Below are positions 6,801 through 62,960 of a DNA stretch of 64,000 nt, in pieces. Below the pieces are notes generated by a model. It saw nothing but the letters and a program-made list of their open reading frames with translations. It had not been told where the DNA came from and did no database searches. Each line of letters opens with the position of its first letter. The first letter of the stretch is position 1. The DNA is taken from positions 124,001 to 188,000 of the forward strand of contig JAOTOL010001099.1 in NCBI GenBank assembly GCA_034440575.1, in the 5' to 3' direction. The DNA is from Imbricaverruca yamaguchii (Eukaryota; Arthropoda; Thecostraca; Neoverrucidae). A program made the position numbers and the translations under genes.

Positions 6801-9800
6801 GAGCGATGTAGGTTCTACCTGGCTCGCTCACAAATACCAGATGCTTCTCTTTTCCCGTAAGCCGTACGTCTTGCTCATTTGTTTTCTCTCGTATCTTTGT
6901 GATATCCTGTCTCCCATCGAATCCCATGCACTGCACCTTACCGCCTATGCCCTCCTTTAGCTTTCGTTTTTCTTTCTCCTGTGCCCTTTTTCTGGCTCTT
7001 ATCACTTTATCTCGTGTGATGACGTGCCTCGTGTCGTTCTCAGTGACGAGGCCAAGGTCCTTCAAGAGAGCGATGCCAAGGGCCGCTGCAATCCTATCAG
7101 TGACCTCAATGTACCGGTCACACTCCTTAGCGAAATTCTCCAGAGGCATCATATTGTACGGAGCCCTAGTCTGTGTTGGTTCGTGGACACTCCCTGTGTC
7201 ATATGCATCGTCACCATTGCTTCCCTCGTCCATGCTTTCGGGCTCGTGTCCCGTGCTGTGCTCGGTCAGACCCGAGGGACCAGGATCCGAGTCGTTGGCG
7301 TCCGTCTGAAGGAAAGCCGGGTCAGGCCGCAGACGGTTCTGATCTCTTCGCCTCCTCCCCAATGCATTGGAGGCCTTCATGTCAATGCCGCCGATGCTTC
7401 GCTTCCTCTCACCTCGCTGGTCTTGTAAGAAATTCAACTCGCGGTATGGAACCTTGTTCTCGCTGGGGCAGCTGCAGGCATTTCTCGAATGACAACTGCA
7501 CGCGCAGATGTCAATCAGCTCATGGAGGGGAATCGTTTTGCTTGCGCCAGCGCGTTTCTTTATTGGGGTCTTTGTTAGATCCTTTCCTTTCTTCATTATC
7601 ACCAGGACACCCCGGACGATCGACTGAAACGATTTAACAGGGACGCTTGCTTTCCCCCAAAGGTATACAACGCCCTTGGCAACGCTCGTGGCGATTTGCC
7701 TTTCGCCCGCTGCATGGTTGTCGACAGCCCGAAGTCTGTTAGACTGTAGTCTGTAGAAGTTGTATACATGAATCTGAAGTGGCAGTTGGTTCTTCGCAGT
7801 TCGCAGGGATGGCCCAACGCAAAGCGAGCCGTCTTCGATCGGAATGAACTTCCCTTAACCTTTTTTACTTTCATACTCGAAATCTGATAGGTTCACTAGT
7901 CTGGAAAAGAGGCAAAAACTGGTTAGGCAACTGGTAAGTTTCAAAATTCATCCCTCGCCATAGGATAAAAATGTATCACAAAGTTTTTTTTTGTGCTATA
8001 CCAGGAAGTTCAGGGTGCATAACTGCATTGGAAATTCCGCGTGCGACACACGCCCTCGTAGATCCTTATTTTCGGTTTCAACCATGGTCATGGTTGGAGA
8101 ATATGCCTCGGCCACCCCGGCGTGGCCGCGCAATATATTGGCCGCCAGTGGGGTAACTTACAAAGCAACTCTTTACCCATGATCATGGTGGTGATGGTGA
8201 GCAAATGTAACAGTTGGTGGGCAATCGATGGTCGGAGTACACAATCATCGCCAGTACTGCTAAATTTGAATGCTTATGCGTTAGTCGTGCAACCGAGTAC
8301 CCACCCAGTAAGGTGTGGGATTGTCAGTGTTTCTGCCAAAGTAAATTAATTAAGTTCAAATATCTGCAGCAACAATTCACATGCAGCCAAGAAAACATGC
8401 TATCAGGGTATCTCAGGTAAACATTGTGAGCTTGGAGGCTGAAAGGCAGGCCACAATATGCCAAAGCCGGCTGTGGCTACGCTCCAATCGTGTGTAGCTG
8501 TCGATAGAAGTCGCTGGAATCGTAATAAAATAGCGCTGTGCGCATTTTAGTCAGCACACTGTGCACTGTCTCAAATCCGCCACCTACCTGCCCCCCAATT
8601 GACCAAGAAAGATACTTATATTGCGGAATGAACGGTGAATGGTCGCAGTTCATACTTCTGCCGATAGAGGGGAGTGGTGGCGCTGCGGGCGGCACACCTT
8701 CCGGAACTCTGCGTAGTGGCAGGCACAATTTTCAAGTTACGGAAGTGAAAATTAGCACAACGGTGGATGAAAAACTGTACAATGCAATGAAATAAATATT
8801 TATTTGCTATCTAATTATTTAAATTCCTGAAATCGGGCTCGATCCCGCAAGTTGGTAGAAAAACGTCATTTCGGCCTCAGAAAGCCCTGAGGCGCGGCGG
8901 CTTCCCGGCCTCAGATTGCTCTAAAACTTTGCAGATCGTCTTTTTAGAACCAAACGCAAGTTTTAAGACTTTAACACCAAAAATTTTGGAAATCACTCCA
9001 CCCTAATGTACACACCATCTAAACAATCGCTGCAATATACATTGGGTCGCGAAAGGAAAGATGCAACGGCCGGAATGTTTTCAGAACGATGTCCCAGCGA
9101 CGATGAGATCGTCTCCCGGACCATCCCAGTTCACTGCTGCTGTGTTAACAACCGTTGCAGCTGGAGAGGACGTGCCTCGTCCAGTCACAGGTCACCACGA
9201 CACAGACAGGCGCTGCCGCAGCGGCGCGCCCGGCCCTCACACCCACCTCCAGCTCCACTTTGAGCTCGTGCAGCTGCCTGCCCAGCCTCTCTTCTTCAGC
9301 CCGCAATGACTCGGGTGTGACACGACTGAACATCCAGGTCAGGCCGGTCGGCGCGTGGCCAGCGTTCACCTGTCGGTTACAATGGTTACACGGCACGACT
9401 GAACATCCAGCTCACGCTGGACGGCGCGTGACCAGCGTTCACCTGTCGGTTACAATGGTTACACGGCACGACTGAACATCCAGGTCAGGCCGGTCGGCGC
9501 GTGGCCAGCGTTCACCTGTCGGTTACAATGGTTACACGGCACGACTGAACATCCAGCTCACGCTGGACGGCGCGTGACCAGCGTTCACACGTCCGGCTAC
9601 CATGGTTACACACAGCATCCAGGCTAATTCCGTCGCGCAATGATTACTTAGCCTAATGTAGCGCCATTTCATAGATAGCCCGGCACAGAAAGGCAGCACA
9701 CAGGACAGATGGTGTGGCTCTCGTGCCAACTTAATACAATTTTGACAATGCGACGAAAGCGTACTCCGTATTCGAAGAACGGGATTCGCAAATGGACTTG

Positions 9801-12800
9801 GTAACATCGCTGACCACGGGATTTGACCCCACGATCCTACGGTCAGCAGTAAAATATCCTGACTGAGCTACTGCGCCTTCTGACCCCATATCTGACGCCA
9901 GTTTAGTGTGCAGAATTGGGTGTGCTTAGCACAATGCTAACCCATTTCGATAAGCTTCGGTGTCCCAAAACAGATGGTGCCCCAGGGATCCAGATTGGAT
10001 GTATTTCTAAAACGATAAAGTGAGAGGTGAAGCTCGAGTAATATGTTTTTAAAAAAATGCGAGCCTCATAAATTTCCTAGTCGTCTAAATGCAGTCCCAC
10101 CAATTCATATACCTGAAGACGAAGTGAAATGCTTACGTTGTGGATTAGGATGAAAAATATGGATATACTTATCCACGAAGCCTGTTATAAAACAGAATAA
10201 AGGGGTGAGGAAAATACTAATGAAAGGAGGTCAAGAATCGAGAATGGTTCTTCTTGTCGCAATCCCGCATACAAATCAGGAAAATCCAGGACATTGATCA
10301 GCCTGAGCCAACCTCATCTTATCTGCGCCCACTGCGTCTAACCCAAGTCACCCGAGCGCACCCCGTGCCATCTGAGCGCACCCCGTGTCACCTGAGCGCA
10401 CCCCATGTCACCTGAACGCACCCATCCCACCTGAGCGCACCACGTGTCACCTGAGCGAGCCTCGAGCCACCTGAGCGCACCCCGTGCCACCTGAGCGCAC
10501 CCATCACATCTGAGCGCACCCCGTGTCGCCTGAGCGCATCCCGTGTCACCTGAGCGAGTCCCGCGCCACCTGAGCGATCCCGTGTTACCTGAGCGCACCC
10601 CGTGCCACCTGAGCGCACCCCGTGTCACCTGAGCGCACCCCATGCCACCTGAGCGAGTTCCGTGCCACCTGAGCGCACATAATGTCACCCGAGCGCACCC
10701 CGTGCCACCTGAGCGAATTCCGTGTCACCTGAGCACATCCCGTGTCACCTGAGCACACCTCGTGTCACCTGAGCGCACATAATGTCACCTGAGCGCACCC
10801 CGTGTCACCTGAGCGCACCCCGTGTCACCTGAGCGAGCCCCCTCGCACCTGCGCTCTCTCGGCCTCCTTGCGCTGAATCTCGGCGGCCGTGGCCTCGAAC
10901 TGCATCTGGATGACATCGCGGCGGCCCAGCGCCTCTCGTATGGCCTCGGCGTACAGCACGTACTCGCGCAGCGGCTGCGCCAGCTGCGCCGGCTGGCTGT
11001 CAATGACGGCCTGCTGCGCGGCGGCGCAGCGCTCCACGGCGCCCGCGGCGGCACGCAGCAGCGGGCCCAGGTCCGGCTCGGACGTCGACCACAGCGTCAG
11101 CGTAGGCCCCAGCCGACCCAGCTCGGCAGTCATCTCTGCCGAGAGAGGAGAGTAAGATCCCGTCACCTCTCTTGGGAAAGGGGCGAGATCTGGTCACCTC
11201 TCTTGTGGAAGGGAAATGAGATCTCGTCATCTCTCTTGTGGAATGGATGAGATCCGTGATCTCTGGGGAAGGGGAGTGAGATCCCGTCATCTCTCTCGGA
11301 TAATGGGAGGAGATGGTAAGATTCCGCCATCTCTCTGGAAGACAGGGAAGGGTAAAATTATGTAGTTTATATGGAGAATGGGGGCGTGGAGACTGGGGAT
11401 TGATGGTGTGTGGAGTAAGAGCACAATAAAAGAAAAACAAGATAAAATAAGTCGAACGCTTTCAATACCGCTTAAAGCTACTACGTTACCGGTGTTATTC
11501 AGAGTTAATTTTGGGTGGACACACTAGCAACTAAAAAGCGAAACGGCGACCATGTTCGACCTGCTAGCTCGATGGTGGGAACACTACAGTTCAGATCAAT
11601 TAGACGGCAAATACAGGTTAGTGGGATGTTGATAGTTGTGGTACTATGGTTGTTTTATAACGCATCCGACTGCTGGGTCACATAATAAATCGCCAATCTC
11701 TCACGCCGACCCCGCAGATCGGTGGGATGACGAGTGCACATCAATGGGATGACAAGTGCAGATCAGTGTGACGCCAAGGGACGAGGTGATGACCGACGTA
11801 GGTCAGTGGGACGGCAAGGGCAGGTCATTGTCAAGTGCCGATCATGGTCGTGACAAGTGCAGATCGGCATCGTGACACGTGCGGATCAGCGGGACGAACA
11901 GAGCAGATCAGTGTCGTGACAAGTGCGGATCGGTGTCGTGACAAATACAGAGCAGTGTCGTTTAGTTTAGTTATTTGGGCTTTAGGGCGCATCAACCAGG
12001 GTTGATCATTCGCGCCCAAGAGAGCAGTGTCGTGACAAGTGCGGATCAGTGTTGTGACAAATGCAGATCAGGGTCATGACAAGTGCAGATAATTGGGACG
12101 AGCGGTGCAGATCAGTTGGATGAGCAGTGCAGATCAATGGGACACAGCTGGCGAGCGCCGACTACCAGTTTTATCCTTGTGGATACGCGCGCTGGCACGT
12201 TCCAGGGCAGTCAGCTTGTCGCCCAGCTTCTCGGCGTAGTCGAGCACGTGCTGGAGCTCCGGCGAGCGAGTCTGCACACTTGCCACGGTCAGACCGTGCA
12301 GCGAGTCGGAGACGCGACCCAGCACGCTGCGGCCGCGGCTCTTGTGCACCGCGAACTCCTAGTGAACGTGCAATGGTCAGGACGAGCTCCCCAACGGAGC
12401 ATCAGAGCCGAGAGCAGGACAACGGACGAGTAGTGGCCCAGGCAACACATGGACGGACCACCAGAGAACCTACAGCAGATCAACAGACCACAGCGACTCC
12501 GACAACAAGTGAACAGACAACACCAGCCCCGACACAATGCCACGCCATGGCAGCAGATCAGACAGTACAGGGATGGCGAATACGTAAGGTGACATCAGAT
12601 AATTACGCATTTCTATCAGACGACAATGAATAGTGGGTAGCAGCTTGGAAAAAATTATCTGAACAGAGACGGCAGCTGACATGAAGCCATTTCTAGACGC
12701 GAAGATCGCACGGTGGAGGTGTCAGGTACACAGCGTCTGCCGCCTACGACTCGCTACCCAGCCAACAGCGTCCGTCCAACGTCACGCCAGCTGAGCCGGA

Positions 12801-15800
12801 TCCAGACGCCAGCCAGCCAGCGCCAATACTGCCGCAAACAGACATACGTGCAAAGTGCATATTGAGCCGCATACGGGCATTATGGTCGCAGAATTCAATC
12901 CCGACACCTATCCTGCACCCCGGGTTCAGACACGCAACACTTCCCAAAATCCAGCAAGAGAATGTTAGGATTGGAATCTAATGGAAACCATACATGTTGG
13001 CACGAGGCCCCGCCAGAAGTAATACTCCGTTTTTTTTCCCACCGAAAGCTGCGGAATCGAAACCAAGGCGACTAATTCATTGACAGGGGCTCTGTGAGAA
13101 TCATTATCCCAGCTGGCATTCAACCCCACTGTAAACCACTTGTAAACTCTTACTGTCCTCACGTGCAGATGAAGAAAAAGGTTACGTTACAACACGCAGT
13201 GATTCGATAGAAGATATACCTTTGTACTACACTTGTTACATATTCGATGCATATATATATAGATGTTAGCTTGTTACAAGAACCAAGAAACAGGGCGCAT
13301 GTACGCTGATGGATTCCTAGGTATTCAGATAAAGGATATACTACAGTTCTTAGATATCCGACATGTATACTTATTTCCAAGGAATTTAAGGAACTAGGAG
13401 AGAAACCGAATATATGCGGATGAATTCCTCGGTATATAAGGAAAGGGCCTCCTAAATTTGGTAGATATTTCATACACACGTGTTTACTTGTGTCGAATAA
13501 CTTTCCAGAAACTGGTGTATATCTAATGAAATTATCTATATCAAGGTAAAGGGTGTAGTTTGTCGACACATATGTCCAGGTTCAACTATTTCATGTTTCA
13601 TTGTGAAATTCTGAACCATACAATGCCTGGCCTATTTCACGACAAACTGTGGAGGACGAGGCGACCAGTATGTTATACTTGGTGGAAAATATGCAGGAGA
13701 TTATCTAGTAAGCATATTGTTTTGTGCAATTATAATTACTCTCAGAATAATACACTACGTTCAATAGTCTCTAACACTGTTCTAGGGGTGACCTAACAAT
13801 GGAATCTTTGGATGCATGTAAGTCAATGGGCTTATTTGAAATCCGAATTGCAGCAGCAGAGATGTCCGTGAACCCGTCATGATTCATCACGTCTGCTTCA
13901 CTTCGTGCTTTTTCAAATCGCACTTACGTCGTCTGAGACTACGACTTGTTTCGAGCTTCTGGATGGCGTCATGACTCCCTTCATAAGGTAGTCATGACGC
14001 GTACATAAACAGTACATTGGTGAGATACAGCATTCCAACTTGCGAAAGGTGCGGTTGGTCGAGAAAGTGGATTATATGACGACCATTACAGTAGTGAACT
14101 GCGCCTCACATTTCCGGCATGCACCCGGCATGCACCCGGCATGAAGACCTCCGCCGGTATGAACAGGTGCCTCACACAGCTCAGCACCACACATCAGTCG
14201 ACATCGACGGCACCAGGCCGGGGGCACACAGAACACTACTGACCCAGCTCAGCACCACACATCACCGGGCATCGGCGTCATCAGGCTGAGGGACCACACA
14301 GAACACTACTGACACATCACAGCACCACACATAAGCGGGCATCGGCGTCATCAGGCTGAGGGACCACACAGAACACTACTGACACATCACAGCACCACAC
14401 ATAAGCGGGCATCGGCGTCATCAGGCTGAGGGACCACACAGACCACTACTGTCACATCACAGCACCACACATAAGCGGACATCGGCGGCACTAGGCCGGG
14501 GACCAAACAGAACACCACCGTCACTGAACACCACCACACATAAGCAGGCATCGACGGCACTAGTCTGAGGCGGCCTCACGGAACACCACTCACAGCCGGC
14601 TTCGAGGTAATGAAGAGTTTGAAGCTGGTGTTGCAGCTGAGTACCGGGTGGTCGGCGATGCGGTTCATGAAGCGATGCAGCAGTGCAGTGCGCGAGCGGA
14701 TGAAGTCGCGCTGGTATCGGTCCAGCTGTCCCAGCAGGCTGTGTTTCTCCGGCAGCGGCTGCCAGACGCACGCACAGCGGCCGCGTGCTACCACCATGGC
14801 CAGACCGACCGACGCTTGCACAGTATACCGACCAACAAGTACCGGGCACACTGACCAACACACATGCGACAAGCTCGCTTGGGCTCGGACTTAACAAAGC
14901 AAGTTGTTGTGCCCTGAGTTCCGCCTCGTCAGTCCATGAGCCTCTCCCTTTGGTTCTGAAACCTCCAAAGGCTCAGGCTTTGAGTTCAATATCGGGCGAG
15001 GGCTGACTGGCTTCGAAGCTGCCAAACAGAAATAATTAAAACCAGTCGATGCATACATATAGAAATAGTAGTAAAAAGGAGTTCCAAAGACAGGAACATC
15101 AGTTGTACTCGATTTACCCCTGTTCAGCACTCCTTCAAACAGCCATCTTTTTTTGTTCTTCGATATTTGGCTATTCTAGGTGAGCAAATTCAGGAGGAGA
15201 TTAACGTTCTTTCAGACGGATTTATACAGTGAATCCCCCATATAGACCAGGCAGTCTAAGATATCCAATATGAAATCTGCACACCTTCCCTCTTATGATA
15301 CTTTGGTCTTTTGAGTGCATTGTCAAAACCATTACTACATCCTCCTCAAAATCTGGGACTCTCAGCCATGATTTTTTTAGAATGTAGTACATTGACTGAC
15401 ACCGTGGCTTCAACTTCCGCAGTCCGTCGCCACCCACCGGTATCACGGTACAGTCGGCAGTCCGTCGCCACCCACCGGTACCACGGTGCAGTCGGCAGTC
15501 CGTCGCCACCCACCGGTACCACGGTACAGTCGGTAGTCCGTCGCCACCCACCGGTACTACGGCACAGTCGGTAGTCTGTCGCCACCCACCGGTACCATGG
15601 CACAGTCGGCAGTCCGTCGCCACCCACCGGTACTACGGCACAGTCGGTAGTCCGTCGCCACCCACCGGTACTACGGCACAGTCGGTAGTCCGTCGCCACC
15701 CACCGGTACCACGGCACAGTCGGTAGTCCGTCGCCACCCACCGGTACCACGGTACAGTCGGCAGTCCGTCGCCACCCACCGGTACCACGGCACAGTCGGT

Positions 15801-18580
15801 AGTCCGTCGCCACCCACCGGTACCACGGTACAGTCGGCAGTCCGTCGCCACCCACCGGTACCACGGCACAGTCGGCAGTCCGTCGCCACCCACCGGTACC
15901 ACGGTACAGTCGGCAGTCCGTCGCCACCCACCGGTACCACGGTACAGTCCGCAGTCCGTCGCCACCCACCGGTACTACGGCACAGTCGGTAGTCCGTCGC
16001 CACCCACCGGTACCACGGTACAGTCGGCAGTCCGTCGCCACCCACCGGTACCACGGTACAGTCGGCAGTCCGTCGCCACCCACCGGTACCACGGCACAGT
16101 CGGTAGTCCGTCGCCACCCACCGGTACCACGGCACAGTCGGTAGTCCGTCGCCACCCACGGGTACTACGGTACAGTCGGCAGTCCGTCGCCACCCACCGG
16201 TACTACGGCACAGTCGGTAGTCCGTCGCCACCCACCGGTACCACGGTACAGTCGGCAGTCCGTCGCCACCCACCGGTACTACGGCACAGTCGGTAGTCCG
16301 TCGCCACCCACCGGTACCACGGTACAGTCGGCAGTCCGTCGCCACCCACCGGTACGATGTGTGTCGGGTAGGCTTCAGTGAGCCTCACCCGCAGCCACAT
16401 GAACTCATTGTAGCGTCGCCGCACGCAGTACTCGCTGTCGTCGAACTCGGCGCGCGCCGTCTGGCGGCCAGCACAGACCGCAGTTGGCGGAAGGGAATCG
16501 TCCGCGCCGACACGGCACGGTAGCGCAGTAAGTGGACCAATAGCAAGGTCAATAGTACGTGTTTGTGTATGGGGTGGGGACGGGAAAGTGAAACTCTAAA
16601 CAACGTGTTACACTTGCAGGTACACAATGAATACATCTGAGGTAGGCGAATAAGAGCCAGATGACCGAAGTTATACTACGGTAGGAGAACAAGCGAAGTT
16701 TACAATCAATGAACGGCATATGCTTAACGACCGAAGTAACATGTATTTCTGGCCAGTTCGAACCCAAAACCGCATTATCTAGCATGGTTCCCAAATCTAA
16801 ATGATTCCAACAGCTGGTTGGGAGCAAACCAGCAAGCCACGGAAGAATAACTGTCACCATATGCACCACAGCAGCCTCTAGACCCAATATTGAGCGGCAA
16901 TGACCTGTCAAAAGCGTTCACATTCTAGAGGGTGTGTACGTTTCAGGCACGCACGCAGGCACGCGCACACATACGCACACACAGGTGAACGACTATTATT
17001 ACACTGCTATACTGCCTTTGAAAACACCATTTTCGCACAGCCTGACACAGGACGCATTCTGGAAGCAAACAACTCAGCTCAGACTGCACTGCATGTCCCA
17101 TATAGTGTGGGCAGAACGTTACAGCGGTCTAGCGACTCACAAGAATGCGCCACAACTCATACGACAGCACCGCTGCCCGCGAGTACCTTGGTGGAAATGC
17201 GAAACGTGATGTAAGTCTCCATGCTCGTGACGTGTTTCTGCGGGTCATCGACCTTAATCTGCAGGTCACGCGTGTCGGTCGGATCCAGGTCATCCCAGGA
17301 CACACTCGCCACCGACGGAGTTGCGATCTGAAACGACGTCAGATCGCGGTTAGTGCCACGAACGTTCAGTTAATAACGGGACACGGAGCCAATATGGTGT
17401 CGAGTAGACAGATGAACAGACAATGGCCCCCAATTACAATGCCAATGCTCAATAATTCCAAACCGAGCTGAAATCCAAAATGCGCTAACGGATACGGGTA
17501 AGCCATCTAGCGTGACAACTGAGCAAAACAGCCGTGAGCGAGGGCGAGACAACAGCAAGCCTACTGCTGTGAATATCAGAGGGCATATCAGCGATCCCAC
17601 CCCCCACTACCGCCACGAGGGCGGACCCCGAGCAGGTCTACTGTCGTGTGTATTAGCGAGGATATCAGCGATCCAACCCCGCACTACCGTCACGAAGGCG
17701 GACCCTGAGCATGTCTACTGTCGTGCATATTAGCGAGGATATCAGCGACCCCACCCCATACCGTCAAGCTTTGTAATAGTTAAAAATCCTGTTTTGTGCC
17801 ATGGCGTAATTTTTGCTTTCTTCGATCTATTCCAAAAACTTTTCCTGTTCCGAGCTTGACACTGATATTTCTTCTGAACAACACACAATTTGATCTTAAA
17901 GAAGACATTCAGTAGCGGAACTTTCTGCGTTCAGTTGTACTTTTGCTAGGCAGAATCTAGCCGGTACATAAACCAAAACAAGTTGCTTCAAAGTATTGCA
18001 TGGTTGCCAAGATCTAGTGTTAATTGTTCAAAAAAATCCAGGAAACAGCAAATTCAATCTAACGGGCCACCGCAGGATTCCGGTAGAAAGTGCAGATAAT
18101 AGCAATGTAACTGACAATTCAGTAGCATTGCTTCAATTCACCACAATAATGTGTCAGTACAACATCGCTGTGAACCATGGTTATCAATGCTGCGCCATCA
18201 TAACTAGAGTCAACACTGATTTGCATGGTACTTGTAACACAAAACAAACATTTACATTTAAAGACTGCCTGTAGGTATTACATCGTGGCACATATCGTAA
18301 GCTCCCGCGCTCCTCCCACATAATTCCAATGTATGTAGGTATTTGCAATCACGCATTTATAGCAGAGCTTGGGGATCCAGAGGAATGGGCTTCAAAGTTC
18401 CACTCCTGTTGTATGCTGCATAAGAATGGTACATGAAACAGGTTATTGTCTCCAGCCAAATGTAACAGCATAACTTACATATGGTGCATTGTTGACATCT
18501 TCAATCATTGATGACTCATCTGCCAAGTTCAGGACTGATGGTTTCACAGCATCCTCTTGGGTGACATCCAAAGTTGCCAT
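2315..18580 (-). CDS. SNX7: Sorting nexin, SNX7/SNX30 type (PX-BAR), complete, 9 coding exons
   Basis: Nine exons (18479-18580, 17187-17327, 16350-16460, 14594-14758, 12166-12358, 10829-11135, 9247-9325, 4129-4263, 2315-2398) join with consistent phases into 1317 nt: 438 codons plus a stop. SNX7 and SNX30 are about the same length. The PX domain (about residues 55-172) has RRYNEF (96-101), PPLPEK (118-123, across an exon junction) and RIADHP; this fold binds endosomal phosphatidylinositol-3-phosphate. The BAR region (about 200-430) has [12 protein letters not shown] and ADMERWEK, and the C-terminal end starts CLASWES. Family members act on endosomes in sorting and autophagy, usually as SNX4 partners. 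Introns carry minisatellites, SINEs and a whole transposon. SNX7 versus SNX30 cannot be settled because invertebrates commonly have one pro-orthologue. The start in exon 1 is the least certain part. Confidence 0.9.
2690..2880 (+). mobile_element. tRNA-derived SINE, family A
   Basis: The head has a tRNA-like A box (GGTAGCTCAGTTCGTAGAGC) and B box (GGTTCGAATC) about 30 bp apart, with no foldable acceptor stem. The body contains CCGCGACCAATCGGCGTGAGA. Copies sharing this body lie at 35440-35612 and 60465-60626. Lies just upstream of the last SNX exon, in intron 8. Confidence 0.75.
2881..3767. other. Intronic DNA, nothing recognised
   Basis: Part of SNX intron 8. No coding signature, RNA gene or recognisable mobile element was seen apart from a short duplicated GCTTATAAATGTGC at 2920-2970. 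Confidence 0.5.
3768..3887 (+). repeat. 120 bp pure purine tract: poly-G, poly-A, (GA)n
   Basis: A run of G, then about 30 A with rare G, then about 37 GA repeats, with no pyrimidine on this strand. It lies in SNX intron 8. Confidence 0.95.
4129..4263 (-). CDS. SNX7: SNX7/30 exon 8
   Basis: The acceptor ATATTGCAG precedes TCGCTAAAC and the donor is CAAGAG then GTCGGT. It encodes 45 residues starting [14 protein letters not shown], with [10 protein letters not shown] and ending NYFQE. This aligns with KVECANNALKADWERWK and HYYEQ of human SNX7, the last long helix of the BAR domain. Phase 0 at both ends. Confidence 0.9.
4748..5205 (+). repeat. Left terminal inverted repeat of the transposon
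   Basis: Aligns by eye with the reverse complement of 8555-9008. Shared strings include AAAACTTGCGTTTGGTTCTA, GGCCGGGAAGCCGCCGCGCC and TTTTCACTTC. Similarity fades after GGGGCGGATCTAAGACAGGG. Confidence 0.9.
5711..7854 (-). CDS. Putative transposase, uncharacterised RNase H-like family, two exons
   Basis: Exon A (6581 to about 7854) and exon B (5711-6323) are separated by a 257 bp intron (donor ATGGG then GTATGT, acceptor TTTTCGCAG) and join in phase to give about 600 residues. Visible in order: [20 protein letters not shown]; a Cys-rich cluster ([14 protein letters not shown]); FLQDQRG; a charged linker; [36 protein letters not shown]; and, in exon [18 protein letters not shown] and [10 protein letters not shown] recall this order from uncharacterised proteins scattered through invertebrate genomes. 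The Asp-Gly, Cys/His and Arg-Trp motifs resemble an RNase H-like, hAT-type catalytic core; that is inference. No stop or frameshift is seen. The start is unresolved: the frame is open to 7854 without ATG before the Met near 7596, so a 5' exon is probable. Confidence 0.72.
8555..9008 (-). repeat. Right terminal inverted repeat of the transposon
   Basis: Inverted partner of 4748-5205, ending CACCCTAATG followed by TA. The few hundred bases between the gene and this repeat (7860-8554) show nothing recognisable. Confidence 0.9.
9247..9325 (-). CDS. SNX7: SNX7/30 exon 7
   Basis: The acceptor GGATGTTCAG precedes TCGTGTCAC and the donor is CTGGAG then GTGGGT. It encodes 26 residues beginning [17 protein letters not shown] and ending KVELE, a heptad-rich BAR helix comparable to TPEQREARIKVLEEQ of SNX4. 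The first base completes a Ser codon, which requires exon 6 to end after two codon bases. The acceptor is reproduced in the adjoining 73 bp repeat. Confidence 0.8.
9321..9620 (-). repeat. 73 bp minisatellite on the acceptor of SNX exon 7
   Basis: Four units with starts at 9321, 9394, 9467 and 9540 (period 73). In gene orientation each unit contains GGATGTTCAG followed by TCGTG, i.e. the acceptor plus the first five exon bases. Units alternate between two variants (CAGGTCAGGCCGG and CAGCTCACGCTGG). Confidence 0.92.
9815..9888 (-). mobile_element. Degenerate tRNA-like SINE head
   Basis: On the minus strand GCGCAGTAGCTCAGTCAGGA resembles an A box and GGGGTCAAATCCC a B box, spaced as in a tRNA. 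No intact cloverleaf is seen. The SINE body may continue down to about 9640. From 9889 to 10339 nothing is recognised. Confidence 0.55.
10340..10840 (-). repeat. 20 bp minisatellite carrying a splice donor
   Basis: About 25 units of roughly 20 bp. In gene orientation the unit reads GCTCAGGTGACACGGGGTGC, so each contains CAG followed by GTGACA. The first unit touches SNX exon 6. Confidence 0.95.
10829..11135 (-). CDS. SNX7: SNX7/30 exon 6 (BAR core)
   Basis: The acceptor CTCTCGGCAG precedes AGATGACTGCC. It encodes [31 protein letters not shown] and [10 protein letters not shown], matching the EYGPIHILWSASEEDL and HEYVLYSE regions of SNX7. Two donors are possible. CAG then GTGCGAG (exon end 10849) gives phase 0 and does not fit exon 7. 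CTCAG then GTGACA (exon end 10829), inside the first 20 bp repeat unit, gives phase 2 and does fit, so it is preferred. The exon is very GC-rich. Confidence 0.85.
11136..11340 (-). repeat. 31-33 bp minisatellite on the acceptor of SNX exon 6
   Basis: About six degenerate units. In gene orientation they contain AGAGATGACGGGATCTCA, compared with the exon edge GCAG then AGATGACTGCC, so the unit carries the exon's first seven bases next to a decayed AG. Confidence 0.75.
11341..11699. other. Intronic DNA, nothing recognised
   Basis: Part of SNX intron 5. No repeat unit, RNA gene or coding signal was recognised. Confidence 0.4.
11700..12150. repeat. ~22 bp minisatellite interrupted by a SINE tail
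   Basis: Degenerate units of GATCAGTG, TCGTGACAAGTGCG and variants, next to the donor end of SNX exon 5 but starting about 25 bp away. At 11955-12022 a piece containing GGGCTTTAGGGCGCATCAAC is inserted; related pieces occur near 31460, 41950, 43730 and 62985. Confidence 0.75.
12166..12358 (-). CDS. SNX7: SNX7/30 exon 5
   Basis: The acceptor TTCACTAG precedes GAGTTCGCG and the donor is AAAACTG then GTAGTC. It encodes [20 protein letters not shown], then [15 protein letters not shown] and ending ARIHKDKT, the linker and first BAR helix (compare GLLSRMGQTV and QKINLIDKISQRIYKE in SNX7). Phase 0 in, phase 1 out, agreeing with exon 6. Confidence 0.9.
12359..14160. other. Intronic DNA, nothing recognised
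   Basis: Part of SNX intron 4. Short open frames exist on both strands without domain signatures. Near 13970-14000 GTCATGAC occurs twice close together; no function is assigned. Confidence 0.5.
14183..14593 (-). repeat. 70 bp minisatellite on the donor of SNX exon 4
   Basis: About six units with starts at 14183, 14251, 14321, 14391, 14461 and about 14528. In gene orientation the intron begins GTGAGTGGTGTTCCGT and the repeat copies have GTGACGGTGGTGTTCTGT or close variants, so the array grows out of the donor sequence. Confidence 0.88.
14594..14758 (-). CDS. SNX7: SNX7/30 exon 4 (second half of the PX domain)
   Basis: The acceptor GTCTGGCAG precedes CCGCTGCCGGAG and the donor is CCGGCT then GTGAGT. 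It encodes [30 protein letters not shown] and [12 protein letters not shown]. Together with the last Pro of exon 3 this rebuilds the PPLPEK loop. The R-x-x-L-x-x-F and RI-x-x-HP pattern is diagnostic of PX domains. Phase 0 at both ends. Confidence 0.93.
15420..16353 (-). repeat. 38 bp minisatellite on the donor of SNX exon 3
   Basis: About 24 units of exactly 38 bp. In gene orientation each contains TACCGGTGGGTGGCGACGG; the real exon edge is ATCGTACCG then GTGGGTGGC. Because 38 is not a multiple of 3, all minus frames cycle through the same peptides, producing spurious frames of up to 269 codons. Confidence 0.97.
16350..16460 (-). CDS. SNX7: SNX7/30 exon 3 (PX lipid-binding motif)
   Basis: The acceptor TGGCCGCCAG precedes ACGGCGCGC and the donor is GTACCG then GTGGGT. 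It encodes 37 residues including [19 protein letters not shown] and [14 protein letters not shown] contains the Arg that contacts the 3-phosphate in PX domains. SNX7 has SEFDNHEYEVRRRYQDFLW at the same place. Phase 0 at both ends. Confidence 0.94.
16461..17186. other. Intronic DNA, nothing recognised
   Basis: Part of SNX intron 2. It includes a short CA-rich run at about 16945-16983. No coding or mobile-element signature was seen. Confidence 0.45.
17187..17327 (-). CDS. SNX7: SNX7/30 exon 2
   Basis: The acceptor TCGTTTCAG precedes ATCGCAACT and the donor is ACCAAG then GTACTC. It encodes 47 residues with [20 protein letters not shown] and TFRISTK. SNX7 has VDDPESHVTTIETFITYR at this position. 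Phase 0 at both ends. No minisatellite touches this exon. Confidence 0.93.
17588..17760. repeat. ~74 bp tandem repeat, about 2.3 units
   Basis: Units share ATATCAGCGATCC, ACTACCG and GTCTACTGTCGTG. Intronic (SNX intron 1) and not at a splice site. Confidence 0.8.
18479..18580 (-). CDS. SNX7: SNX7/30 exon 1 (first coding exon, probable start)
   Basis: ATG at 18580 opens [17 protein letters not shown], and the exon ends VNNAPY before the donor GTAAGT. It is in phase 0 with exon 2. The acidic, unstructured N-terminus is typical of SNX7/30, but its sequence is not conserved, so this exon rests on its strong donor and matching phase. The frame also continues upstream of the ATG for over 30 codons, so a 5' extension cannot be excluded. 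Confidence 0.62.
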
Positions 18581-30502: not shown

Positions 30503-30510
30503 CCCATTTC

Positions 30511-31452: not shown

Positions 31453-31530
31453 AAGAAATTTATTTGGGTTTTAGGGCACATCAACTGCAGTGGTTATACA
31501 GCACCCATAAGCAGGGTCAAGAACCGACCC
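31453..31530 (-). repeat. SINE-tail fragment at the CR1 5' end
   Basis: Contains GGTTTTAGGGCACATCAACTG and ACAGCACCCATAAG in plus orientation, a short dispersed module also seen near 11970, 41955, 43745 and 62985. Confidence 0.6.
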
Positions 31531-49540: not shown

Positions 49541-49544
49541 CCGA

Positions 49545-50377
49545 CACTTGCATTTCCGAGGAAATTTCCCGGGTGCATCAGTATTCTCACCCAATAAATT
49601 GGGGTGAGAACATGCACTAAAATCCAGATCTGAGCGAATGCGGTCATGCTTCATCTTAAATGAATCCCCTCGTCAAGCTAAACTCAAAACTACCCTTCCT
49701 GAAATTATACGTTGCCAACTTTATCCGTTGCATACTTATGGATTCGGTTTTTGACGTAATGCATTATTCGCCATAGGGTTTAGCATGGAGGCCAATGGGT
49801 GAGAAGTGACCGGCCCCTGCGATTTCTCTGATTTTGGTATGCCAACCCCACCTCCGACACTTGCATTTCCGGGAAATTTCCCGGGTGCATCAGTATTTCA
49901 CCCAATAAATTGGGGTGAGAACATGCACTAAAATCCAGATCTCAGCGAATGCGGCCATGCTTCATCTTAAATGAATCCCTCGTCAAGCTAAACTCAAAAC
50001 TACCCTTCCTGAAATTATGCCTTGCCAACTTTATCCGCTGCATACTTTTGGATTCGGTTTTTGACGTAATGCATTATTCGCCATAGGGTTTAGCATGGGA
50101 GGCCAATGGGTGGGATATGACCGGCCCCTGCGATTTCTCTGATTTTGGTATGCCAGCAACCCCACCTGCGACACTTGCATTTCCGAGGAAATTTCCCGGG
50201 TGCATCAGTATTCTCACCCAATAAATGGGGGTGAGAACATGCACTGAAATGCAGATCTGAGCGAATGCGGTCATGCTTCATCTTAAATGAATCCCTCGTC
50301 AAGCTAAACTCAAAAATACCCCTGCTGAAATTATGCCTTGCCAACTTTATCCGTTGCATACTTATGGATTCGGTTTT
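49545..50377 (-). repeat. ~316 bp satellite, inverted part of the array
   Basis: About 2.6 units in opposite orientation to the following block. TATGCC marks recur at 49838 and 50149. Confidence 0.93.
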
Positions 50378-55500: not shown

Positions 55501-55504
55501 GTTA

Positions 55505-55904: not shown

Positions 55905-55906
<2 letters not shown>

Positions 55907-55953: not shown

Positions 55954-55960
<7 letters not shown>

Positions 55961-56329: not shown

Positions 56330-56575
56330 TGACACATGTGAGGGTCATATTCCGCCAGGGCACCCGGTACACGTCAGGGTCATATTCAACCAGGACACCT
56401 ACCGACATGAATGCCAGCTTCTGACATAGATGACGATCATGTTCCAGCAAGGCACCTGATGATATAAAAGCCAACCTCTGACACACGTTAGGGTCATATT
56501 CCGCCCGGACACCTGCTGCATGTCAGGGTCATATTCCGCCCGGGCACCTGTCACATTCCGGCGAGGCACCTGCTA
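56330..56575. repeat. Degenerate ~50-60 bp tandem repeat
   Basis: Four to five units sharing GGGTCATATTCCGCC and GGCACCTG. Confidence 0.75.
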
Positions 56576-56814
56576 ACAAGAAAGTCTGGTCAGCCTAGTC
56601 TAAGCCCAGTCTAGACTAGTCAGTCTAGTCTCTAAGTCTAAGCCAGAAAGTCTTGTCTAGAAAGTCCCTGCCATATTGTTTCCGGTAGTGACTGAATCGC
56701 CAACACAGGGCGAATTTGTTGCCCTCGCTACACTGCAACTGCGCGGCCAGTCGCACGTTTACGCGGCCTCCTACAATGCCCGCGGGGTGTTCGTTCGGGT
56801 ACCGGCACCGGACA

Positions 56815-56925
56815 CCACAGCCGCCACTTCACCAGCAGACGCCACAGCCGCCACTTCACCAGCAGACGCCACAGCCGCCACTTCACCAGCAGACACCACA
56901 GCAGCCACTTCACCAGCAGACCTTA
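56815..56925. repeat. 27 bp tandem repeat, about 4 units
   Basis: Units of CACAGCCGCCACTTCACC plus AGCAGACGC. The overlapping plus frame at 56676-56969 has no recognised domain. Confidence 0.9.
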
Positions 56926-57099
56926 GCTCCGCCTGCAGCACCACACCACTTGTCTGGGTAATGTATTAGCCGCCTGTAAAAGTTTGTGTCCTGTCAATGT
57001 ACTTAAGCGCCCGCTGTAGAAACCAGTTTTGTCCTGGTGGCAGATTTAGCCGCTGCTGTCACACAACCAGTCTTTTTTAATGTACTTAAGCCGCCTGCT

Positions 57100-58370
57100 G
57101 TAACAACCCAGTTTGTGCCTGGTGAATGTTTAAGCCGCCTGCCTGTAGACCAACAGTCTTGTGTCCTGGGTGGCAGATGACTTCACAGCCGCCTGCCTCG
57201 TCAGCACACACCCAGTCCTTGTGCTCTGTAATATTAGAGCCGCCTGCCTGTCAGCACCACACCCAGTCCTTGTGCTCCTGGTCGGCAGATGACTTCACGA
57301 GCGCCCCGCCTCGTCAGCACCACACCCAGTCTTTGTCCTGGTCGGCACTTCACAGCCGCCCGCTTAGCACCACACCAGTCCTTGTGTCTTGAATGTACTT
57401 AAGCCGCCGCCTGTAGACCACACCCAGTCTTGTGTCCTGGGTGGCAGATGTACTTCAGAGCCCCTCGCCTCGTCAGACAAGTTGTGTCGGTCGGCAGATG
57501 TACTTCACGAGCCGCCTCGCCTCGTCAGCACCACACCCAGTCCTTGTGCTCCCTGGGTCGGCAGATGTACTTCACGAGCCGCCCCGCCTCGTCAGACCAC
57601 ACCCAGTCCTTGTGCTCCCTGGGTCGGCAGATGTACTTCACGAGCCGCCTCGCCTCGTCAGCACCACACCCAGTCCTTGTGCTCCCTGGGTCGGCAGATG
57701 TACTTCACGAGCCGCCTCGCCTCGTCAGCACCACACCCAGTCCTTGTGCTCCCTGGGTCGGCAGATGTACTTCACGAGCCGCCTCGCCTCGTCAGCACCA
57801 CACCCAGTCCTTGTGCTCCCTGGGTCGGCAGATGTACTTCACGAGCCGCCTCGCCTCGTCAGCACCACACCCAGTCCTTGTGCTCCCTGGGTCGGCAGAT
57901 GTACTTCACGAGCCGCCTCGCCTCGTCAGCACCACACCCAGTCCTTGTGCTCCCTGGGTCGGCAGATGTACTTCACGAGCCGCCTCGCCTCGTCAGCACC
58001 ACACCCAGTCCTTGTGCTCCCTGGGTCGGCAGATGTACTTCACGAGCCGCCTCGCCTCGTCAGCACCACACCCAGTCCTTGTGCTCCTGGGTCGGCAGAT
58101 GTACTTCACGAGCCGCCCCGCCTCGTCAGCACCACACCCAGTCCTTGTGCTCCCTGGGTCGGCAGATGTGCTTCCGAGCCGCCTCGCCTCGTCAGCACCA
58201 CACCCAGTCCTTGTGCTCCCTGGGTCGGCAGATGTACTTCACGAGCCGCCCCGCCTCGTCAGCACCACACCCAGTCCTTGTGCTCCCTGGGTCGGCAGAT
58301 GTACTTCACGAGCCGCCTCGCCTCGTCAGCACCACACCCAGTCCTTGTGCTCCCTGGGTCGGCAGATGTA
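57100..58370 (-). repeat. 67 bp minisatellite copying the last codons and stop of the 58.3 kb gene
   Basis: From 57489 to 58358 there are 14 units with a 66-67 bp period. In gene orientation each contains TACATCTGCCGACCC, GGGAGCACAAGGACTGGG and TGTGGTGCTGA, i.e. codons for YICRPREHKDWVWC plus stop, then GGCGGCTCGTGAAG. Units from 57100 to 57480, and weaker ones from about 56960, are increasingly broken by small deletions. Confidence 0.95.
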
Positions 58371-58568
58371 CGAGCAGTGGGTGTTGACGCTGAAGTTGCT
58401 GTCGATCAGACTCGGCGAGCCGACGAAGTCGTAGACGCTCTTGCGGCGCGTCGGGAACGGCCTCGACATGGGGTAGCGCCAGCAGAGGTAGCTGTCGTGG
58501 GCGATCAGGTCGCGGTGCTTCACGATCACGGGCCACAGCACGACTGTGAGGACTCGCTGGTCCAGGCC
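58326..58568 (-). CDS. Unknown-function gene, last exon
   Basis: The acceptor CTCCGCCGGCAG precedes GGCCTGGACC. It encodes 80 residues starting GLDQRVLTVVLWPV and ending KDWVWC before TGA (58326-58328). Phase 0 entry. The acceptor is copied in the 87 bp array and the 3' end in the 67 bp array. Confidence 0.85.
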   Translation of the reverse strand, partial: GLDQRVLTVVLWPVIVKHRDLIAHDSYLCWRYPMSRPFPTRRKSVYDFVGSPSLIDSNFSVNTHCSYICRPREHKDWVWC

Positions 58569-61366
58569 CTGCCGGCGGAGCGGCGCAGCGGTGGTCAGCG
58601 CTGTACCGGAGACGGGTACGGGGGACGGAGGGAGGGCAGAGAGATAGAGCAGGCCCTGTCGGCGGAGCGGTGCAGCGGTGGTCAGCGCTGTACCGGCGAT
58701 GGGTACGGGGAGACGGAGGGAGGGCAGAGAAATAGAGCAGGCCCTGTCGGCGGGCGGTGCAGCGGTGGTCAGCGCTGTACCGGCGATGGGTACGGGGAGA
58801 CGGAGGGAGGGCAGAGAAATAGAGCAGGCCCTGTCGGCGGAGCGGTGCAGCGGTGGTCAGCGCTGTACCGGCGGTACGGGGAGACGGAGAGAGGGCAGAG
58901 AAATAGAGGGGGAAGGGTTGAGAGAATATCAAACCGGGAGATAGACACAGTGGGCAAAAATAAAGAACACAAGATACCACGGTGGGCACGCACAGGTCCC
59001 AGGCGCTGCTTTCGGCAAGGTTGTCTGGGTGAGGATGCATATATGTGTAGTGTTTCCATGCATCACCACTCGTCGATATTGCAACTAAGGATAGCGTCGA
59101 TGCGCCCTAAGCGTTTTTTGCGTGGAAAAGCCGATGTTGTTTTGTATTGCTATAAGTAACAGGATAAAGTTATTTGATAATAACACGAACTATACATTAT
59201 AAGAGAGATTGTTTCAATGTTGTTCAAATTTAACCATTGGAAACTACTTACCTCTTTTATTATTAATTTATTATACTATCTTTTCTTAATCTTTTATTAA
59301 ATAATAATTTTACTAATAATTTAACCTCTGGAAAATAGAATATGGCAATAATCATAGCCGACCAATTTTGATGGTGTTCATTCACAAACCCACTACCAGA
59401 GCGGCGCCACCGGTATAATGTCCAATCATGACGCCGATCATGACGCAGACTGAACTAGGATTGTCATGAGGTTGAGTGCGGCATCTAATGGATGTAGAGG
59501 GTCTCCTGAGCGCCAATAAAATTCCAATGTCGACTGGCGATTACTGTGAGGAATCCGAGGGCCAGCCTCAGAGCATGGATCGAGCTTGAAACCAAAGAAG
59601 TTATGGATAACTGGGAAGATTCGCTAGCAGTTTGAAAGGGCCTCCGAGGGCTAACAGAGTTCACTGAGGGTTAAGGAGCGTCTTTGTAGCTAACGAGGAT
59701 TGTGAGGACTACTGAGGGCCGGAAAGAGAGCTAAAAGGCTCTTGAAGCCAGAAAGACTGTCAAGGACTTGGAAGGGCCTCTGAGCGCTGGAGTGGACTGG
59801 TCTGGTAACAGGGCACAGGAGTGGACTGGTCTGGTAACAGGACTGGTCTGGTAACAGGGCCCACAGCCGCTCGTCATGGCCCATTCCAGTAGGATAGCCG
59901 GAGTTTGGTCCAGGGGCGAACATCGGAAGAGGCCCCGCACACCTACATAGGAAGCTCCTTTGTTGTTTGGCACATCGGTTCCAAATACAAAAGCAACACC
60001 CACTCTAACATACATGAATACACCTTGCGGATGTCAGTATATCCTAACATTGTGCAGAAGCAAAAACAAACGTGATGCTCGATAGCTTTATCTTTCATTT
60101 GTTAAAACCTCGTATCCAGTTAAAAGGCATAAAGACATAAAAGATCAGTGCAACTATGGGCCACAAGGGCCCTTCTTGGTTGCACTCTGTACACTGAACC
60201 AGTTGCCCACCAAATCTGTCAATCGGCCCTCCCTGTAATACTGAATAGCAAGCCCTCTATTCTTATAATGATTGTCTATGCTGTTTTTAAAGATGTTCAA
60301 TGTGCTGCTACTGACAATGTTTTCTGGCAGCTGGTTCCAGTGTTCTACTACCCTGTTGGTGAAGAAAGTCCATTTGTAGATAGATAGGAATAGGTTTCCT
60401 CACCCGTGGGACCTAAAATGCCACCACACAGAAAACAGATCAAGAGAAATGAGAACGAACGGAAACCGGTGGTTATTGGCTTTACGACACATCGACCGTT
60501 GAGTCATATAGCGTCGCCAATCTCTCACGCCGATTGGTCGCGGGCGAAGAGTAGCGAAGGTGAGACTCGAACCCACAACCTTTCGATTGTGGGACGGGCA
60601 GCTTACCCCTAGACTACTCGTCCCCTAACGAACGGAATCCGACCCAAGAAACAAATGAACCGAAGCCAGCGAGACCGAGGGAAACATTTGGCGAAGCATG
60701 CGCAACTGCCACACATGCCATTCGGCAGCCAACACCTGTGTCACTGACCTTGAACTTCCACTGCGTCGAGTTGATGATGCGCTGTCGCACCTGCTTGTAG
60801 AGGCCGTTGTGGCGGTTCCAGCCGCCCCACATGCCGCCCAGCATCTCGGTGGCGTGGGCGGGGGCGTCCCCTCATGACGTGGAACGTCTTGTTGGAGGCG
60901 ATCCACTCCTGCACGGCCGCCTGCTCACGCTGGAAAGCCGCTTCAGGTTAGGTCGTGCCAGGTCAGAATATGCTAGGAATGTTGTAGAAGACGAAAACTG
61001 GGACACATTCTGCACTCCAAAATAAGTCAAAGTAGTCAATTTACAAAAGTAGCCAAAGTCAAAGCAATTTAATGGACAGTATCCCAGAAAGCTGGAAGCA
61101 TGGGCACCGCTTTCCCACTGAGACCGCTCGCATCTTTCCCTCCGCCTCCACGCTCATACCGGCTACATTGACCTCATCGTCCCGATTAATGAGACACCTG
61201 CTACATTGACCTCACCGTTCCGATTAATGAGTCCAGATCTCGCACGATGAAGCGGTCCACGGTTTCGTCGGCCAAAGGCATGAAGCGCCAGATCATGCCG
61301 AACTTCTTGCTCAAATCTCCCAGGCCGGGCAAGTTCCTGACGTCGCAGAAGTCCACGTTGTCGTAT
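58326..61366 (-). CDS. 3' part of an arthropod gene of unknown function (WRF/RDLDS family)
   Basis: Three exons (61216-61366, 60749-60929, 58326-58568) join in phase once an extra base in exon 2 is ignored. Motifs in order: YDNVDFCDV, MIWRFMPLADETVDRFIV, RDLDS, REQAAVQEW, NKTFHVMR, MLGGMWGGWNR, LDQRVLTVVLWPV, AHDSYLC, RPFPTRRK, FVG and CRPREHKDWVWC then stop. I recall this motif order from uncharacterised proteins common in arthropods. The DxD-like RDLDS, HVMRD and paired C-terminal Cys suggest a secretory-pathway glycosyltransferase-like enzyme, but that is inference. The 5' exons are outside the window. All three exons are bordered by minisatellites or duplications. Confidence 0.8.
58561..58910 (-). 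repeat. 87-88 bp minisatellite on the acceptor of the last exon
   Basis: AGGCCCTG recurs at 58564, 58651, 58739 and 58826. In gene orientation the units have CTCCGCCGACAGGGCCTG, against the real edge CTCCGCCGGCAG then GGCCTGGACC, so each copy holds the acceptor and six exon bases. Confidence 0.93.
58911..60123. other. Intronic DNA, nothing recognised
   Basis: Inside the last intron of the 58.3 kb gene. At 59795-59860 GGACTGGTCTGGTAACAGG is repeated three times. Confidence 0.5.
60124..60370 (-). mobile_element. CR1 3'-end fragment
   Basis: Matches the last ~250 bp of the CR1 element at 27390-31452, including the octamer tail and the codons for the ORF2 C-terminus, but is truncated shortly upstream. 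Lies in the last intron of the 58.3 kb gene. Confidence 0.92.
60465..60626 (-). mobile_element. tRNA-derived SINE with family A body and a different tRNA head
   Basis: The minus-strand head GGGGACGAGTAGTCTAGGGG and GGTTCGAGTC differs from 2690 and 35440, but the body GCGACCAATCGGCGTGAGAG is the same. It is flanked by an 11 bp direct repeat AACGAACGGAA (60454-60464 and 60627-60637). Confidence 0.9.
60749..60929 (-). CDS. Unknown-function gene, middle exon with +1 frameshift
   Basis: The acceptor GGCTTTCCAG precedes CGTGAGCAG and the donor is TTCAAG then GTCAGT. The first half reads REQAAVQEWIASNKTFHVMR and the second half, one base later, reads DAPAHATEMLGGMWGGWNR and on to STQWKFK. The exon is 181 nt, one more than the 180 needed for phase 0. 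The extra base lies in the C4 run at 60868-60871. It could be a sequencing error or a real lesion. Confidence 0.85.
61162..61237 (-). repeat. 38 bp duplication across a splice donor
   Basis: GCTACATTGACCTCA occurs at 61162 and 61200. The copy next to the exon has the donor (GGAACG then GTGAGG); the other has GGGACGATGAGG, with the GT changed to AT. Confidence 0.85.
61216..61366 (-). CDS. Unknown-function gene, upstream exon
   Basis: The acceptor CTCTGCTCGCAG precedes ATACGACAACG and the donor is GGAACG then GTGAGG. It encodes YDNVDFCDVRNLPGLGDL, MIWRFMPLADETVDRFI and RDLDSLIGT. One base at the start completes a split codon. Exits in phase 0, matching the next exon. Confidence 0.87.
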
Positions 61367-62960
61367 CTGCGAGCAGAGCCAGGGGTCGGGTGGTGTGTGT
61401 GGGGAGCTGTGGTGAGACGGGTGGAGGATCTGCGAGCAGAGCCAGGTCGGGTGGTGTGTGCAGACCGTAGAGCAGCTGGGGGAGCTGTGGTGAGACGGGT
61501 GGAGGATCTGCGAGCAGAGCCAGGTCGGGTGGTGTGTGCAGCTGGTGTGTGCAGACCGTAGAGCAGCTGGGGAGCTGTGGTGAGACGGGTGGAGGATCTG
61601 CGAGCAGAGCCAGGTCGGGTGGTGTGTGCAGACCGTGAGAGCAGCTGGGGGAGCTGTGGTGAGGCGGGTGGAGGATCTGCGAGCAGAGCCAGGTCGGGTG
61701 GTGTGTGCAGACTGTAGAGCAGCTGGGGGAGCTGTGGTGAGACGGGTGGAGGATCTGCGAGCAGAGCCAGGTCGGGTGGTGTGTGCAGACTGTAGAGCAG
61801 CTGGGGGAGCTGTGGTGAGACGGGTGGAGGATCTGCGAGCAGAGCCGGGTGGGTGGGGACGGGTGGAGGATCTGCGAGCAGAGCCAGGTCGGGTGGTGTG
61901 TGCAGACCGTAGAGCAGCTGGGGGAGCTGTGGTGAGACGGGTGGAGGATCTGCGAGCAGAGCCAGGTCGGGTGGTGTGTGCAGACTGTAGAGCAGCTGGG
62001 GGAGCTGTGGTGAGACGGGTGGAGGATCTGCGAGCAGAGCCAGGTGGGTGGTGTGTGCACTGGGGTGTGCAGACCGTAGAGCAGCTGGGGGAGCTGTGAG
62101 GATCTGCGAGCAGAGGCAGGTCGGGTGGTGTGTGAACATAGTGAAAAAAGGGGGAGGGTGAGACGGGTGGAGGATCTGCGAGCAGAGCCAGGTCGGGTGG
62201 TGTGTGCAGACCGTAGAGCAGCTGGGGGAGCTGTGGTGAGACGGGTGGAGGATCTGCGAGCAGAGCCAGGTCGGGTGGTGTGTGCAGACCGTAGAGCAGC
62301 TGGGGGAGCTGTGGTGAGACGGGTGGAGGATCTGCGAGCAGAGCCAGGTCGGGTGGTGTGTGCAGACCGTAGAGCAGCTGGGGGAGCTGTGGTGAGACGG
62401 GTGGAGGATCTGCGAGCAGAGCCAGGTCGGGTGGTGTGTGCAGACTGTAGAGCAGCTGGGGAAGCTGTGGTGAGACGGGTGGAGGATCTGCGAGCAGAGC
62501 CAGGTCGGGTGGTGTGTGCAGACCGTGGAGCAGCTGGGGGAGCTGTGGTGAGACGGGTGGAGGATCTGCGAGCAGAGCCAGGTCGGGTGGTGTGTGCAGA
62601 CCGTAGAGCAGCTGGGGGAGCTGTGGTGAGACGGGTGGAGGATCTGCGAGCAGAGCCAGGTCGGGTGGTGTGTGCAGACCGTAGAGCAGCTGGGGGAGCT
62701 GTGGTGAGACGGGTGGAGGATCTGCGAGCAGAGCCAGGTCGGGTGGTGTGTGCAGACCGTAGAGCAGCTGGGGGAGGTGTGGTGAGACGGGTGGAGGATC
62801 TGCGAGCAGAGCCAGGTCGGGTGGTGTGTGCAGACCGTTGGAGCAGCTGGGGGAGCTGTGGTGAGACGGGTGGAGGATCTGCGAGCAGAGCCAGGTCGGG
62901 TGGTGTGTGCAGCTGGGGTGTGCAGACTGTAGAGCAGCTGGGGGAGGAGTGGTAAGACGG
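61367..62960 (-). repeat. 78 bp minisatellite on the acceptor of the upstream exon
   Basis: About 20 units, mostly 78 bp (checked at 62176 and 62254), with a few shortened. In gene orientation each contains GACCTGGCTCTGCTCGCAGA, identical to the exon's acceptor plus its first base, then TCCTCCACCCG. Because 78 is a multiple of 3, Pro/Leu- and Arg-rich frames over 600 codons arise on both strands; they are not genes. Confidence 0.97.

Follow-up and report, generated by a model that had tools for sequence, protein, structure and literature searches.

Tandem arrays copying splice edges and a stop codon in two barnacle genes, with a likeness to amphioxus mirages

Minisatellites lie directly against the exons of two genes at this locus, and the question is whether these arrays grew from the exon edges themselves and, if they did, what the affected edges share. 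The window, meaning the whole stretch of 64,000 nucleotides that was analyzed, had received a first-pass annotation in which at least seven exon edges were said to adjoin an array whose unit reproduces the edge, by recurrent tandem duplication starting at intron ends. All seven arrays were recovered by TRF at about the periods given there (73, 20, 31-33, 70, 38, 87, and 78 bp). The observation itself proved largely right and its interpretation is partly supported, as set out below.

Exon edges of the two genes

Protein searches placed the window in the barnacle lineage by the matches of both genes. The exons of gene 1 were 83% and 75% identical to SNX7-like proteins of Amphibalanus amphitrite and Pollicipes pollicipes, respectively, and gene 2 matched uncharacterized proteins of Pollicipes (86%) and Amphibalanus (72-74%, the two best). 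Judged by these identities, the species of the window appears to be distinct from both relatives. Exon edges were re-derived from the proteins of relatives (P0001 and P0002 for gene 1, P0111-P0114 for gene 2), which gave the following models.

2315..18580, minus strand: gene 1, an SNX7-like sorting nexin, complete coding model, from tblastn of the Amphibalanus and Pollicipes SNX7-like proteins
18580-18479, 17327-17187, 16460-16350 (E2), 14758-14594 (E3), 12358-12166, minus strand: gene 1 exons
11135-10849 (E5), 9369-9247 (E6), 4263-4129, 2398-2315, minus strand: gene 1 exons, continued
58326..61366, minus strand: gene 2, encoding an uncharacterized barnacle protein, the three final coding exons, from tblastn of P0111-P0114
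61366-61216 (A), 60929-60749 (B, with a one-base frameshift), 58568-58326 (C, ending in TGA), minus strand: gene 2 exons

The nine exons of gene 1 join into a 446-aa frame closed by a stop, with GT-AG introns as read from the sequence. Its product carries a PX domain and aligns gap-free to sorting nexin-7 (PDB 3iq2) across the E1/E2, E2/E3, and E3/E4 junctions. For gene 2, no Pfam family rose above the cut-off (DUF1489 reached 13.1 bits versus a cut-off of 25), and Rfam at gathering thresholds gave no match. The frameshift in exon B lies at 60861-60870 in a run of G and is probably a sequence error. Together, the two models provide 21 splice edges, of which gene 1 contributes 16 and gene 2 contributes 5.

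Five of the edges named in the first-pass annotation (16350, 14594, 11135, 58568, and 61366) agreed with the proteins of relatives, and two had to be moved. The acceptor that had been put at 9325 lies 44 nt further out, at 9369, and the array there covers 49 nt of true exon. In both barnacle relatives the peptide VNAGHAP precedes the 9325 position, the window encodes the matching peptide from 9372, and three further partial peptide copies upstream in the array encode VNAGHAP..WMFSRA. The donor that had been put at 10829 belongs to the second copy of the 20-bp repeat; the true donor is at 10849, and CAG|GT recurs from there. A model that ends E5 at 10829 and starts E6 at 9325 was dropped, since the Amphibalanus and Pollicipes proteins have VNAGHAP in between.

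Edge copies within the arrays

Copying of edges was scored by aligning 90 nt around each edge to the next 700 nt of flank, with 200 dinucleotide shuffles for comparison. A copy was called clear when the match crossed the edge and its score exceeded that of the best shuffle by more than 4. In the two genes surveyed, both preselected by the first-pass annotation, clear copies were found at 7 of the 21 splice edges: donors 16350, 10849, and 61216 and acceptors 11135, 9369, 61366, and 58568. Donors (E2, E5, and A) and acceptors (E5, E6, A, and C) were thus both affected, with periods of 20 to 87 bp and matches reaching 2 to 49 nt into the exon. One further donor, 14594, was borderline (score of 27 versus a shuffle maximum of 25), and this test gave no edge copy at the other 13. 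Clear copies occur in 6 of 11 introns: the E5-E6 intron has them at both ends with different units, four introns have them at one end only, and the sixth, which precedes exon A, is known from its acceptor end alone. As for stop codons, the one in gene 2 (58326) cleared the same threshold with a perfect copy (76/76), and for gene 1 the edge-copy test gave no copy of the stop codon (27 versus 40). The arrays concerned are as follows.

15419..16355, minus strand: 38-bp array at the E2 donor (16350), from TRF; 25 copies including the edge copy, the last one degenerate
14174..14594, minus strand: 70-bp array beginning at the E3 donor (14594), from TRF; edge weakly reproduced
11136..11296 (TRF 11146-11296), minus strand: degenerate 31-33-bp array at the E5 acceptor (11135)
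10347..10854 (TRF 10347-10835), minus strand: 20-bp array in register with the E5 donor (10849)
9321..9611, minus strand: 73-bp array spanning the E6 acceptor (9369); unit of 49 nt of exon and 24 nt of intron
61367..62912 (TRF 61401-62912), minus strand: 78-bp array upstream of the exon A acceptor (61366)
61158..61231, minus strand: two 38-bp copies across the exon A donor (61216), with up to 16 nt of exon
58563..58908, minus strand: 87-bp array spanning the exon C acceptor (58568); 4 copies including the edge copy
57489..58371, minus strand: 67-bp stop-codon array; 13 copies including the edge copy

The arrays were mutually unlike in unit and period, as had been noted before. That each unit reproduces the adjoining edge held for six of the seven arrays originally named, two of them after repositioning, and was borderline for 14594. 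The pair at donor 61216 and the stop-codon array were additions to the original list. Growth from local DNA that includes the splice edge was likewise borne out at seven edges by the edge-copy test.

At the E2 donor, the 38-bp unit comprises the last 6 nt of the exon, the GTGGGT donor, and 26 nt of intron. Beyond the edge copy lie 24 intronic units, 7 of which are identical to it over 38/38 positions, and the donor CCGGTGGGT recurs in 23 exact intronic copies identical to the real one. The E5 donor reached an edge-copy score of 43 (shuffle maximum, 26) and is followed by 20 intronic CAG|GT, with 16 of 20 spacings, including the first seven, at exactly 20 bp. On a donor score table, the real donor is matched by a single GT in the E5 donor array and by none of 74 GT in the E3 array. 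The E5 acceptor scored 34 (shuffle maximum, 26), its match taking in 7 exon nt; no close copy of its 14-mer is left there (0 of 16 AG within 3 mismatches).

The E6 array is built of two alternating unit types. Its edge copy matched over 79/79 positions, two exact decoy acceptors are intact, and the edge copy equals the third copy over 73/73 bp (one of three units), which suggests that sequence was recently exchanged or duplicated between the coding copy and the intronic ones. In gene 2, the unit at the exon A acceptor carries CTCTGCTCGCAG|AT (score of 52; shuffle maximum, 25), and the array holds 20 exact copies of the acceptor 14-mer. Exon A also has the two-copy donor case, the second copy of which is without GT; it looks like an early stage of an array. 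The 87-bp unit at exon C joins 6 nt of exon to a long pyrimidine-rich intron end and leaves three near copies of the acceptor. The expectation of introns with many candidate splice sites was thus confirmed by the 23 E2 donors, the 20 exon A acceptors, and the 20 CAG|GT after E5.

The 67-bp unit beside the gene 2 stop codon copies the last 46 coding nt together with the stop codon itself, and 7 of 12 units match the edge copy over 67/67 bp. An assignment of 57489-58371 as a donor array was rejected, because the relatives show that the exon ends there in the stop codon. The array runs on in low-quality sequence to about 56957. Compared with the 67-bp unit, 56957-57488 gave 520 matches, 12 substitutions, 0 inserted bases, and 197 deleted bases, and the proximal stop array gave 879, 4, 0, and 3, respectively; three shuffled controls gave substitutions, insertions, and deletions alike. 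The distal segment looks like unpolished long-read sequence.

This deletion-rich segment and the frameshift in exon B show that sequence errors are present, as an origin of the arrays in faulty assembly would have it. Such errors do not account for the arrays, however, because the units carry interleaved variants, which at E2 follow no fixed order. To our knowledge, no assembly failure makes unrelated arrays at several exon edges, and we regard an artifact as highly improbable.

Placement and origin of the arrays

Exon edges might also meet arrays by chance. Arrays were put randomly in the non-coding sequence of the two gene spans 20,000 times, using 31 of 57 TRF rows (periods below 15, the 316/317-bp satellite, and overlapping rows were dropped by hand) and allowing random arrays to overlap each other and up to 60 nt of exon. 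Seven of the 21 edges lay within 15 bp of an array, and 0 of 20,000 random placements reached seven, the null mean being 0.97 with 11 arrays (score of at least 100) or 1.26 with 15 arrays (score of at least 50). As the 15-bp tolerance was picked after the arrays had been seen, strict overlap is reported alongside: 5 of 21 edges versus 0.79 or 0.98 expected (P = 0.00075 or 0.00255). The seven edges of the placement test include 14594 and exclude 61366, the reverse of the clear-copy set; 61366 falls outside because its TRF array ends 35 bp short. These counts leave out the stop-codon array, which is located beyond the spans used for the test.

One explanation is that genes of this kind are simply rich in minisatellites, which arise anywhere in GC-rich introns and touch some exons by chance. 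It fits the distribution of the merged arrays with a score of at least 100, 11 of 15 of which fall in the two gene spans; 4 of these 11 (at 2920, 11832, 17585, and the borderline 14174) are without a clear edge copy. A 22-bp array also lies 23 bp away from the E4 donor, where the edge-copy test found no copying of the edge. Yet seven edges were observed near arrays against a null mean of about one, and at seven edges the edge sequence is itself the unit, so that this explanation is unlikely. In GC content, the arrays (0.637) were like the exons (0.619) and unlike the rest of the non-coding DNA in the gene spans (0.474). An excess of units with short exonic parts was suggestive (KS P = 0.10 for seven edges and 0.05 for eight).

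Contrary to the earlier statement that no system of this kind was known by name in animals, minisatellite-like tandem duplications over intron/exon boundaries, called mirages, are described for amphioxus globins and Adh3 in the accessible part of PMC3087553, and for amphioxus TnC and PGBD5 in that of PMC3902484. As described in these excerpts, mirages and the barnacle arrays have in common that a donor or an acceptor boundary is spanned and that units differ between sites; amphioxus units measure 10-72 bp in Adh3 and 150-160 bp in the globins (BflGb6 and BflGb9). Many amphioxus units contain AG/GT signals, and splicing is reported there to be regular despite them. Likewise, many but not all barnacle units keep their splice signals (kept: 23 at the E2 donor, 20 at the A acceptor, 20 at the E5 donor, 3 at the C acceptor, and 2 at the E6 acceptor; not kept: the E3 donor, the E5 acceptor, and the second exon A donor copy). 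Unlike the amphioxus cases, the barnacle locus belongs to an arthropod, involves several edges of one gene, reaches up to 25 copies, and includes a copied stop codon. Length instability and regular splicing belong to the amphioxus reports, so far as the excerpts go, whereas the barnacle locus is known from one DNA sequence.

We consider it probable that the arrays are barnacle mirages, seeded at the edge by tandem duplication, growing on the non-coding side, and leaving the exon-most site in use. A minisatellite would be seeded when a GC-rich segment straddling the edge of an exon, be it a donor, an acceptor, or a stop codon, is duplicated in tandem. Copies would pile up on the non-coding side only, as insertions on the coding side would break the protein, and the exon-most copy would remain the working edge. 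The arrays would then grow and homogenize by slippage or unequal exchange, with the last exon bases included, while splicing would take place at the exon-most site and the outer copies would be silent decoys. The copied edges, their register and copy number, and an array GC content near that of the exons are directly observed, and the exon-most site is the one that yields the conserved protein; what we infer is how the duplications came about, what part selection played, and that the decoys are silent. If turnover includes the edge, edge copies should be identical to inner ones, as is seen at E2, E6, and the stop codon. Along the E2 array, the stop array, and eight walked units of the A array, identity to the edge copy does not drop with distance, and outward growth from the edge is therefore not demonstrated. 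At the E5 donor, the E3 donor, and the E5 acceptor the unit walk returned the edge copy alone, the units being too degenerate.

Could the duplicated sites instead be kept by selection, to regulate or buffer splicing as alternative exon ends or backup sites? The intact 23 exact E2 donors and 20 exact exon A acceptors would agree with this, as would the E2 unit, in which the donor part appears by eye less variable than the 3' part. Elsewhere, however, sites have been lost or weakened: no GT as strong as the real donor is found at E3 and one at the E5 donor, no close acceptor copy is left at E5, and the second exon A donor copy has lost its GT. Moreover, use of 7 of the 8 modeled decoys would break the protein. 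Among E2 decoys 1 to 6 (of 23), five would truncate it to 161-198 aa and the remaining one gives a frame of 484 aa; with either modeled E6 decoy, it would stop at 351 aa. The stop codon, which was copied in the same way, also speaks against selection for splicing, and we judge this explanation quite unlikely.

If introns are created by tandem duplication, a young intron should, as we understand the model, carry related repeats at its two ends. Among the introns surveyed, the one with arrays at both ends, E5-E6, has different units of 20 and 73 bp there. P0035, a predicted protein from a relative (84% identical across 13% of the query), exits E2 at the same point, after THIVP, without the 38-bp repeat. 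If its continuation is taken as intron sequence, this suggests that the E2-E3 intron is older than the E2 array. Relics of intron creation from AGGT-bearing exon DNA are thus improbable as an account of the arrays, even though AG|GT is contained in both the E5 donor and E6 acceptor units and mirages have been proposed as a path to new introns (PMC3087553, in the part available). This route, for which a model was drawn for amphioxus globins, is the one in which an internal tandem duplication gives rise to an intron (Rogers 1989; Gao and Lynch 2009, as cited in PMC3087553). As excerpted there, it shares with the barnacle arrays the tandem duplication of AG|GT-bearing DNA and differs from them in that the barnacle E2-E3 intron appears older than its array and the two ends of the E5-E6 intron are dissimilar.

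Coding edges, wider scope, and other features of the window

The arrays had been tied to intron ends as such, a view that is not supported, given the array copying a coding end with its stop codon. Because the gene 2 stop codon is copied likewise, splice sites are not the only targets of the process, and with this array a "splice site" can be told apart from an "edge of constrained coding DNA." This one case is the strongest hint that what the copied positions share is the edge of coding DNA rather than the splice site.

A broader and more tentative possibility, which we hold to be somewhat doubtful, is a genome-wide process in barnacles. Coding edges of any kind might seed minisatellites, exon ends might evolve in concert with their non-coding copies, and transcripts might regularly carry dozens of identical splice sites of which the exon-most alone is used. 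If general, the phenomenon would be no amphioxus curiosity but would have at least two origins among animals, in distant lineages. It would then also provide a natural experiment on duplicated splice sites, with a single intron holding 23 exact copies of the real donor next to it, make the exchange of sequence between coding ends and non-coding copies watchable, and give a clue to why coding edges are prone to tandem duplication.

As far as our searches go, the arthropod lineage, the density of the arrays, and the stop codon are new relative to amphioxus. No barnacle or arthropod mirage case was found in the accessible text of the open-licence literature, including the Capitulum mitella genome (PMC8416341). 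In Daphnia pulex, like the barnacle a crustacean with intronic tandem repeats, repeat classes of 1-5 and 7-8 bp reach their highest density in introns, and units longer than 8 bp are much rarer there than elsewhere, according to the available part of PMC3152781; the word "splice" is absent (0 occurrences) from its main text in that form.

More tandem repeats, with units of about 18-82 bp, lie away from definable edges at 396-805, 17585-17757, 11714-12143, and 56811-56921. The last of these (27 bp) lies within an open frame of the plus strand; its units span 9 codons, and Pfam gave no match above the cut-off. Intron 7 of gene 1 contains a 456-aa open frame (6484-7854, minus strand) with no Pfam match, possibly a mobile-element gene. 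Between the two genes, a LINE-type open reading frame of 1010 aa (27500-31470, minus strand) encodes endonuclease and reverse transcriptase domains; it is preceded by a frame with a GDSL-esterase domain, and by eye an apparent broken second copy lies at 45394-47663. Two adjoining 316/317-bp satellite arrays occupy 49531-51942, and by eye their consensus units look like reverse complements of each other.
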